DNA of 64,000 nt from Dehalococcoidia bacterium. GTDB taxonomy: Bacteria > Chloroflexota > Dehalococcoidia > Lucifugimonadales > SHYT01. Location of the stretch: assembly GCA_009693045.1 (NCBI GenBank), contig SHXZ01000007.1, positions 1-64,000 on the forward strand, in the 5' to 3' direction. The translations under genes were made by a program, and so were the position numbers. The notes beneath the pieces were generated by a model, which saw only the letters and a program-made list of their open reading frames with translations, was not told the DNA's origin and did no database searches. This document shows positions 11,363 through 30,667 of the stretch, one piece after another (the first letter of the stretch is position 1; each line of letters begins with the position of its first letter).

Positions 11363-11556
11363 CCTCACCCCCGACCTCACCCTCAATCCCTCTCCATTTA
11401 CATGGAGAGGGAGGAAGTGACGAAGGCGCGGCGCGAGTGGGTGGCGATGGCGGTGGTCATAGACGTAGGATAGGCGTTCTGTATCGTGCAAGGGGCGGAT
11501 GGCAGAGAGCAGGGGAAACCTCACCCCTGACCCCTCTCCATACGATGGAGAGGGGG
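11363..11556. repeat. cluster of two family A copies plus a locally duplicated 'gaggaagtgacgarggcgcg' segment
   Basis: cctcacccccgacctcaccctcaatccctctcc...ggagaggg and cctcacccctgacccctctccatacgatggagaggggg. Confidence 0.7.
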
Positions 11557-27513: not shown

Positions 27514-27556
27514 CACCCCTAACCGCTCTCCATGTGATGGAGAGCGGTTAGGGGTG
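27514..27556. repeat. perfect 20-bp-stem hairpin (family A, fully symmetric copy)
   Basis: CACCCCTAACCGCTCTCCAT-gtg-ATGGAGAGCGGTTAGGGGTG. Confidence 0.85.
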
Positions 27557-27650: not shown

Positions 27651-29591
27651 ATGACGACGCAGCAGCGCGGCACTGGAGTCGTTTGGCCCCTGGAACGCGG
27701 ACAGCGCTTGACGCTGAGTCTCGGGGCGATGGATGCGCTGGGGGAGTGCACGGCGGAGGTGGATGGCTTTCCGGTCCACGTGTTTGGCGGGATTCCGGGC
27801 GAGCAGGTGGTGGCGGAGGTCGTGCGGTGCTTCCGCGAGCGGGTGGAGGCGCGGGTGGTGGAGGTGCTGGCGCCGTCGCGGGACCGGGTAGATGCTCCCT
27901 GTCAGTATTTTTGGCCGTGCACGGGTTGCCAGTGGCAGCACGTCCGGTACGACCGACAGCTCGCGCTGAAGCAAGAGCTGCTGGCGCGCGCGCTTGCGGT
28001 TCACGAGCTTCCCGGTGGTTTGGGCAGCCTGCCGCTTTGGCCGACGCTGCCGTCTCCGCAGGGCCTTGGCTATCGGAACCACGCGCGGTTCACGATCGGG
28101 CCGGGCGGGAGCGTTGGGTACGTCAACCGGGCGACGCGGAGCTTCGTGAAGATTGACGAGTGCTTGCTGATGCACCCCGCGATCAACGGTGCGCTGGGCG
28201 CGTTGCAGGGCAACAGCGCGGAGACGAGCCAGATGGCGGTGCGGTACGGCGTGAGTACGGGCGAGGTGCTGGTGCAGCCGCGGATGCGGAATCCCGCGGT
28301 CGCCATCGCGACGGGGCAGGGCTCGTACAACGAGGCGGTGCTGGGACGCCGGTTCAGGGTGGCGTCGCCGTCGTTCTTCCAGGTGAACACGCGGCAGCTT
28401 GAGCGCGTGGTCACGCTGTTGCGGGCTCTTGTTCAGGCGACGGGGGTAGGGGCGAGGCATACTGAGGTAGGGGTGAGGCATGCCTCACCCCTACTGGTGG
28501 ACGCGTACGCGGGGGTGGGCACGTTTAGCGTGCTGCTGGCGGAACAGGTGGGGCGCGTGATCGGGATTGAGGAGTCATCGTCGGCGGTGAAGGACGCGCA
28601 GGAGAACGCGGCGGGGCTCGACAACGTGCGGTTCGTCCTGGGAAAGACGGAGGTCGTGCTGGCGCAGCTAACCGAGCGGCCCGACGTGCTGGTGCTGGAC
28701 CCTCCGAGGGCGGGGTGCCATCCGGACGCGCTGGCGGCGGTCAACCGGCTGGCGCCGGAGACGGTGCTGTACGTCTCGTGCGAGCCGGAGACGCTGGGGC
28801 GGGACCTGAAGGCGCTGCTGGCGGGCCCGTTTCGGCTGGCGGCGTTGTACCCGGTGGACATGTTCCCGCAGACGCACCACGTGGAGTGCCTGGCCGTGCT
28901 GAAGCGCGCGGCGGAGGGCACGAACGGGGCTACGAAGGCGCTGACCCTTGCGTCGGCGTCACCGAGGAGGCGGGAGCTGCTGCAGGCGTTCGGCGTGCGG
29001 TTCACGGTGGCGCCGTCGGCGGTGGACGAGGACGAGATGGACGACGCGGACGGGGCGGAGGCGTACGTTGGGGCGCTGGCGCTGGCGAAGGCGATGGACG
29101 TGGCCGTGTCCCAGGGCGGCGATGTGGTCGTCCTCGGCGCGGACACCACGGTGGTGGTTGACGGGAGGCGGCTCGGCAAGCCGGGATCCGCGGACGAGGC
29201 GCGGGCGATGCTGGTTGAGCTTCGCGGGAGGCGGCACGAGGTGCTGACGGGCGTGGCGCTGGTGGACGCTCGGAGCGGACGGCACAGGGTCCACGTTGAG
29301 CGGAGCCAGGTGTGGATGCGGGAGTATACGGACGCGGAGCTTGAGGCGTACGTGGCGACGGGCGGGCCGCTGGACAAGGCGGGCGGGTACGCGGTGCAGG
29401 ACAGGGTGTTCCATCCCGCCGAGCGGGTTGAGGGTTGTTACTTCAACGTGATGGGCCTGCCGGTGTGCCGCCTTGGGCCGCTGCTCGGCGAGTTTGGGGT
29501 GGCGTCGCCGACGGGCGCGTTGCAGACGGGCGACGGGGCGTGCAGGGTGTGCCATCTGTGGGCGCCTGGCGCAGTTGGGGAGTCTGTGTGA
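27651..29591 (+). CDS. fusion protein: TrmA/RlmD-type RNA (uracil-5-)-methyltransferase + Maf nucleotide pyrophosphatase
   Basis: Methyltransferase: DAPCQYFWPCTGCQWQHVRYDRQLALKQELL, DAYAGVGTFSVLLA, LDPPRAGCHPDAL, YVSCEPETLGRDL. Maf: LTLASASPRRRELLQAFGVRFTVAPSAVDED, VLGADTTVVVDGRRLGKP. One uninterrupted ORF. Confidence 0.9.
   Translation: MTTQQRGTGVVWPLERGQRLTLSLGAMDALGECTAEVDGFPVHVFGGIPGEQVVAEVVRCFRERVEARVVEVLAPSRDRVDAPCQYFWPCTGCQWQHVRYDRQLALKQELLARALAVHELPGGLGSLPLWPTLPSPQGLGYRNHARFTIGPGGSVGYVNRATRSFVKIDECLLMHPAINGALGALQGNSAETSQMAVRYGVSTGEVLVQPRMRNPAVAIATGQGSYNEAVLGRRFRVASPSFFQVNTRQLERVVTLLRALVQATGVGARHTEVGVRHASPLLVDAYAGVGTFSVLLAEQVGRVIGIEESSSAVKDAQENAAGLDNVRFVLGKTEVVLAQLTERPDVLVLDPPRAGCHPDALAAVNRLAPETVLYVSCEPETLGRDLKALLAGPFRLAALYPVDMFPQTHHVECLAVLKRAAEGTNGATKALTLASASPRRRELLQAFGVRFTVAPSAVDEDEMDDADGAEAYVGALALAKAMDVAVSQGGDVVVLGADTTVVVDGRRLGKPGSADEARAMLVELRGRRHEVLTGVALVDARSGRHRVHVERSQVWMREYTDAELEAYVATGGPLDKAGGYAVQDRVFHPAERVEGCYFNVMGLPVCRLGPLLGEFGVASPTGALQTGDGACRVCHLWAPGAVGESV
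28446..28494. repeat. palindromic repeat inside the methyltransferase CDS: half copy plus full 28-nt palindrome
   Basis: gtaggggcgaggcat actgag GTAGGGGTGAGGCATGCCTCACCCCTAC (28467-28494, exact palindrome). Confidence 0.9.
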
Positions 29592-29592
29592 C

Positions 29593-29916
29593 GTGAACAT
29601 CTTTGGTATCGGCCCGATGGAGCTGCTGATCGTCTTTGCGCTCGCTTTTCTGTTGCTGGGGCCCGCGCGGATGGGGAGCACGGCGCGCAAGCTGGGCGGC
29701 TTCGTGAAGGAGGCGCGGAAGGTGACGGAAGGGCTGCCGAAGACGCTGGACGACCTGGCGCGCTCGGCAGAGGCGCCGGAGAAGAGCGATCCGAGGGCGC
29801 TGGCGAAGCGACCGGACTCGCCGGACGAGGGGCCCGCGCCCTGGCGGCCCGGTGGGTCTGAGCCTGAGGGGAAGGCATCGCCGCCGCTGTCGCCCAAGAA
29901 GCCGGACGATGCCTGA
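29593..29916 (+). CDS. TatA/TatB-type Sec-independent translocase subunit
   Basis: VNIFGIGPMELLIVFALAFLLLGPARMGSTARKLGGFVKEARKVTEG; GTG start. Confidence 0.85.
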   Translation: MNIFGIGPMELLIVFALAFLLLGPARMGSTARKLGGFVKEARKVTEGLPKTLDDLARSAEAPEKSDPRALAKRPDSPDEGPAPWRPGGSEPEGKASPPLSPKKPDDA

Positions 29917-30667
29917 CCAGCCACGCCCGCTGACCAGCCATCTTGAGGAGTTTCGGGGGCGGCTTCTGTGGTCGGTGATCGCGATCGTGGCCGGGGCCGT
30001 GCTGGGGGGTGTCTTCTACGAAGAGATCATCGCCGCGCTCATCCGGCCCGCCAGGGAGTACCTGTCGGTCACAGGCAAGCCCGTCTTCACGGAGGTCACC
30101 GAGCTGCTTGGCGTGGTGGTGCGGATCGCGGTGCTGTGCGGGCTGGTGGTGGCCTTTCCGGTGCTGGCGTACCAGATCATGCTGTTTGTGGCGCCCGCGC
30201 TGAACCCCCCTGAGCGGCGCCTGGCGCTGATGTTCGTACCGGTGGCCTCGCTGCTGTTCGCGGGAGGCGTGGCGTTCGCGTACTTTGTGCTGCTGCCGCC
30301 GTCGCTGCGGTTCCTGCTGACCTTCGGGCAGGAAGTGGCGACGCCGATGGTCCGCATTAGCAGCTACGTGAGCTTGGTGGTGACGCTGCTGTTCTGGATC
30401 GGCATCGTGTTTGAGACGCCGTTGCTGATGTTCCTGCTGGCGAAGCTGGGGATCGTGTCGCATCGGGGGTTCGCCCGCGCACAGCGATACATGGTGGTGG
30501 TGGCGTTTCTGCTGGGGGCGATCATTACGCCGACGTTTGACCCGCTGAACCAGATGCTGGTGGCGATGCCGCTGATCGTGCTGTACGAGGTGGGGATTGG
30601 CGTGGCGTGGCTGGCGCGGGCGCGGGAGAAGAAGGCGTCGCAGCCGGCGCAGGCCGCCGAGGGGTAG
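29909..30667 (+). CDS. tatC: Sec-independent translocase TatC
   Basis: PLTSHLEEFRGRLLWSVIAIVAG...FGQEVATPMVRISSYVSLVVTLLFWIGIVFETPL. Confidence 0.96.
   Translation: MPDQPRPLTSHLEEFRGRLLWSVIAIVAGAVLGGVFYEEIIAALIRPAREYLSVTGKPVFTEVTELLGVVVRIAVLCGLVVAFPVLAYQIMLFVAPALNPPERRLALMFVPVASLLFAGGVAFAYFVLLPPSLRFLLTFGQEVATPMVRISSYVSLVVTLLFWIGIVFETPLLMFLLAKLGIVSHRGFARAQRYMVVVAFLLGAIITPTFDPLNQMLVAMPLIVLYEVGIGVAWLARAREKKASQPAQAAEG

Follow-up and report, generated by a model that had tools for sequence, protein, structure and literature searches.

The window analysed here, a 64,000-nucleotide stretch of a Dehalococcoidia genome, carries on its plus strand an open reading frame that extends without interruption from the ATG at 27651 to the TGA at 29589-29591 (27651-29591, 646 codons, 646 aa), as the preliminary description had reported. 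Two protein families lie one behind the other in this frame. The first part is a predicted RlmD/RumA-type 23S rRNA m5U methyltransferase (27651-28907, residues 1-419, of which about 14-419 are covered by the RlmD/RumA match), and after a linker of about 11 residues (28908-28940) it is followed by a Maf nucleotide pyrophosphatase domain of the YhdE type (28941-29492), the match to which spans residues 431-614, and by a C-terminal tail containing cysteines (29493-29588). The next gene downstream, also on the plus strand, is TatA-like (29593-29916) and starts 1 bp past the stop codon of the fusion. It is followed by tatC (29909-30667, plus strand), and 29593-30667 is the tat part of an rlmD-maf-tatA-tatC cluster that is conserved across the order. 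A perfect 20-bp inverted repeat (27514-27556, CACCCCTAACCGCTCTCCAT / ATGGAGAGCGGTTAGGGGTG) lies in the space that separates the fusion from the divergent gene upstream of it, and a similar sequence is found near 11519. The source genome comprises 1.85 Mb in 15 contigs and is 82.8% complete; the Pfam search of this genome gave no other match to PF02545 or PF05958, and second, unfused copies of the two genes were not found by it.

The first half had been described as a TrmA/RlmD-type m5U methyltransferase, of which the RlmD assignment held and the TrmA assignment did not. The score with the curated equivalog model TIGR00479 (rumA) was 243.5 bits, above the cut-off of 183.55, and PF05958 gave 57 bits against a cut-off of 23, whereas the fused ORF scored far under the cut-offs of the RlmC and TrmA models. 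Because of this pattern, 23S rRNA and not tRNA is the expected substrate of the RlmD-like half, and specificity of the TrmA type for tRNA was rejected by the model scores. The target would be U1939, with U747 or dual specificity as further possibilities. In the window, this part has a TRAM-like N-terminus, the 4Fe-4S cysteines C84, C90, C93 and C171, the SAM motif DAYAGVGTF, the DPPR motif (D350/R353), the nucleophile C377 and the general base E412. The four Fe-S cysteines, the Q/E/D of the SAM site, DPxR, C377 and E412 are kept in all 76 fused copies (one Q was unreadable), and the Asn of FFQVN is substituted in two of them. Sequence matches of the fused ORF in the PDB were Maf proteins and enzymes of the RumA/RlmCD type; RlmCD is devoid of the Fe-S cysteines (PMC5614603).

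A palindromic repeat is inserted in frame in the RlmD part (28446-28493, no strand assigned). It consists of the core TAGGGGTGAGGCATGCCTCACCCCTA at 28468-28493 and a degenerate half copy upstream, adds 13-14 residues directly before DAYAGVGTF, and is missing in the two nearest relatives. The palindrome TAGGGG[T/C]GAGGCATGCCTC[A/G]CCCCTA occurs at 14 sites of the genome when up to 3 mismatches are allowed, compared with 0 for the control, and it is possibly a REP-like or small mobile element through which proteins can become longer. Neither this insertion nor the C-terminal Cys tail figures in the preliminary description.

The second half matched PF02545 (Maf) with 190.4 bits against a cut-off of 27 and TIGR00172 (maf) with 151.6 bits against 117.15, in agreement with the earlier view that a complete Maf domain follows the methyltransferase. 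The domain search proposed at that stage thus places both families over their cut-offs in one ORF, and the motifs quoted for both halves were recovered at their positions. The S-R-E-K-D-K signature of Maf proteins is present in the window as S437, R440, E460, K480, D498 and K510, and the residues R439, T499 and Q583 correspond to R-T-Q, and not W-Q-E, of the YhdE subfamily pattern as defined in PMC3899018. Among the 76 fused copies, S, R, R, K, D, K and Q are invariant and the equivalent of E33 is Glu in 75, while the equivalent of T71 is Thr in 54, including the window, and Ser in 22. Members of the YhdE subfamily hydrolyse m5UTP, pseudo-UTP, m5CTP, dTTP and UTP (Tchigvintsev 2013, PMC3899018), and m5UTP, pseudo-UTP, m5CTP and dTTP/UTP are the substrates predicted from these motifs for the Maf half, the copies with Ser being a point against the prediction. 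Judged from their residues, both halves look active. In addition, C596 and C606 together with the tail form the cysteine pattern GCY..NVxGLPxC...CxxC (29436-29588, residues 596-646). An automatic pattern, which failed to catch some rows, counted cysteines at GC(Y)..NVxGLPxC and in the tail in 73 of the 75 fused, 26 of the 39 split and 16 of the 20 other Chloroflexota Mafs sampled. The solved Maf structures in the alignment have no Cys at the first two pattern positions, and the C-terminal pattern of Chloroflexota Mafs is a possible metal or Fe-S site.

The whole chain was modelled by AlphaFold2 with 48 fused sequences (pLDDT 89.7, pTM 0.88); confidence was low around the palindromic insertion (pLDDT 63-69, residues 261-280). 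The best PDB matches by Foldseek were RlmCD/RumA for one half and Maf for the other.

The same fusion was then sought in 59 relatives and subsequently across the order (247 genomes), the class (294) and the phylum (301), with a further scan of the contigs of named genomes, and the loci were classified as fused or split at the sequence level. By this classification, 80 loci were fused (76 distinct RlmD parts) and 40-41 were split. The fused loci span at least 21 family-level groups of Dehalococcoidia, with 14 codes in the own order (f1, f4, f6, f7, f12, f14, f18, f20, f21, f25, f29, f32, f35 and f41) and 7 elsewhere in the class (f47, f54, f59, f69, f84, f93 and f99). Two of them lie on single-contig chromosomes of 1,686,510 bp (G365) and 1,772,240 bp (G385), which appear to be Dehalogenimonas lykanthroporepellens BL-DC-9 (PMC4918011) and 'Candidatus Dehalogenimonas loeffleri' W (PMC11737167), respectively. 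The sister genus code g110 is split, with the genes about 626 bp apart in L183 and L223; its 1,469,720-bp genome is apparently that of Dehalococcoides mccartyi 195, and for such Dehalococcoides-like relatives separate genes suffice. Outside the class, no fusion was found in the phylum sample or among the best 80 named-genome loci, and adjacent unfused rlmD-maf pairs occur there. For RlmD loci of other phyla in the named-genome set, the flanks that were fetched contained no match to Maf. One fused locus titled Acidobacteria groups inside Dehalococcoidia in the RlmD tree. This locus, L034, comes from the MAG 'Acidobacteria bacterium SP213', and its fusion sits deep within Dehalococcoidia; the genome is probably mislabelled or contaminated.

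These results indicate that the fusion is genuine and widespread in Dehalococcoidia. That an assembly or annotation artefact joined two genes is hardly credible: the multi-contig, 83% complete state of the source genome speaks for it, but the same fusion is seen in 80 loci, many of them in independent assemblies, complete chromosomes included, which refutes an assembly join. Neither a missed stop nor a frameshift was seen near residues 420-430, where either would, by the preliminary description, have refuted the fusion, and its alternative that homologs would always be separate genes failed on the fused loci.

In the split relatives the pair is mostly adjacent and on the same strand, with 60 nt or less from the rlmD stop to the Maf domain in 31 of 40; in 11 of the 40, stop and start overlap as NTGA in the frame of Maf. 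The fusion thus derives from an ancestral neighbouring rlmD-maf gene pair. In the RlmD tree the fused label required 8 changes, compared with 33.6 when the labels were shuffled, and at least 3 of them were forced by well supported branches; the corresponding numbers were 10 changes with at least 3 forced for the combined tree, and 12 with 1 forced for the Maf tree. The fused state is therefore old and mostly vertically inherited, with few gains or losses. Within the linkers, Met is present in only 3 of 48 aligned fused sequences, so that Maf is unlikely to have an internal ATG start of its own, although GTG or TTG starts are possible.

Considering these features, it is probable that the locus encodes a bifunctional housekeeping protein, formed by in-frame fusion of rlmD and maf, whose domains work independently on a tether and are produced 1:1. 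The RlmD half would methylate U1939 of 23S rRNA during ribosome assembly, in a SAM-dependent reaction that forms m5U and involves an Fe-S cluster, and the Maf half would release NMP and pyrophosphate from pyrimidine NTPs (m5UTP, pseudo-UTP, m5CTP, dTTP/UTP). The domains would remain independent, the fusion setting only the equal production of both. This reading is favoured by the source genome, in which the sole Pfam matches to both families are in this ORF. The benefit, which is plausible, would be that RlmD, which makes m5U, never comes without the enzyme that prevents m5U nucleotides from rRNA turnover entering new RNA. Such a writer/cleaner relation fits the motifs and the published chemistry of Maf, for which a model has been proposed where modified bases from RNA decay are kept out of new RNA (PMC3899018). 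The preliminary description had already suggested a link between m5U synthesis and clearance, and the m5U writer, the six Maf signature residues and R-T-Q agree with it, while its mention of tRNA and of dUTP-like nucleotides is unsupported.

The data are explained about equally well by simple co-expression and nearly as well by neutral fusion. In the latter, which is a reasonable but less likely account, two genes of an operon that were coupled in translation lost the stop codon separating them, and the joined form persisted because both domains tolerate it, joining bringing no benefit. Several split pairs are in the same frame, with a stop codon plus a few bases in between, and in L162, L167, L169 and L220 little beyond one stop separates the pair from a fusion. 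The linker of the fused relatives is short and variable in both length and sequence (7-31 residues, A2 count), and the state changes several times on the trees. Moreover, tatA and tatC, usually found after the pair in the own order (tatC in 72 of 116 loci), belong to the cluster as well, and adjacency alone is therefore weak evidence of a shared pathway. Given the separate genes of close relatives, a short, variable linker and a cluster that extends to the tat genes, plain co-expression would be a sufficient account. Against neutrality, the fused state is clustered and kept across whole families, as seen from the 8 changes versus 33.6, and the pair persists while other neighbours turn over. 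In other orders it is flanked by genes for FBPase, a P-loop ATPase, a translational GTPase and NAD synthase, enoyl-CoA hydratase, a SIS-domain protein, UvrD, a nucleoside phosphorylase or an amidohydrolase, and since these flanks differ, the pair outlives its surroundings.

Two stronger forms of coupling were also considered. It is rather doubtful that the protein is a selected combination in which the m5U maker carries its own domain for the clearance of m5U nucleotides, the cysteine site perhaps binding a metal or Fe-S cluster and affecting the Maf half. Still more doubtful is metabolic coupling, in which the tether, perhaps together with RNA binding by RlmD, would bring Maf to sites of ribosome assembly or decay for the local removal of m5U nucleotides, or the domains would regulate each other. 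The matching chemistries of the halves, the long inheritance of the fused state and the confident model of the whole chain (pTM 0.88) are in its favour, but the source of m5UTP is RNA turnover and kinases rather than RlmD, and relatives manage with separate genes. RlmD makes m5U inside rRNA and not as a free nucleotide, and m5UTP arises only via RNA turnover and rephosphorylation by kinases, so that no direct channel from product to substrate is implied. The bifunctional protein with independent domains does not call for such a channel.

The physiological role of Maf is debated between cell-division arrest and cleaning of modified nucleotides. A widely inherited covalent link of a YhdE-type Maf to the writer of m5U, the base of one of the proposed Maf substrates, supports the cleaning role independently, from genomic data, and a natural single protein, found in what would be cultivated Dehalogenimonas, offers a test case for it.

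In the literature searched, no description of an RlmD-Maf fusion was found, and the association of Maf with methyltransferases is known from an archaeal gene association and from human ASMTL, in which a YhdE-type Maf is covalently joined to an ASMT-like methyltransferase domain (PMC3899018). The present fusion extends this known theme: a Maf joined to a methyltransferase is not new, and what appears new against the papers searched is RlmD as the partner, the reversed order and the spread through Dehalococcoidia. Both ASMTL and RlmD-Maf join a YhdE-type Maf to a methyltransferase, but in ASMTL the Maf comes first and the partner is of the N-acetylserotonin O-methyltransferase-like family rather than an RNA m5U enzyme; the fusion described here does not have Maf at the N-terminus with an ASMT-like domain behind it. 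E. coli RlmD (RumA), the 23S rRNA m5U1939 methyltransferase (PDB 1uwv, 2bh2), shares with the fusion the TIGR00479 score above cut-off, the fold match, the Fe-S cysteines, DPxR, the nucleophile Cys and the base Glu, but has no Maf domain. E. coli YhdE and B. subtilis Maf have the same S-R-E-K-D-K and R-T-Q signatures, and the Maf half of the window is 38% identical to YhdE in the fold alignment; these two, however, are stand-alone proteins that lack the Cys at GCY..NVxGLPxC and the CxxC tail. Closest in organization is the separate rlmD-maf pair of other Chloroflexota, in which the same two families occur in the same order and on the same strand but as two polypeptides instead of one.
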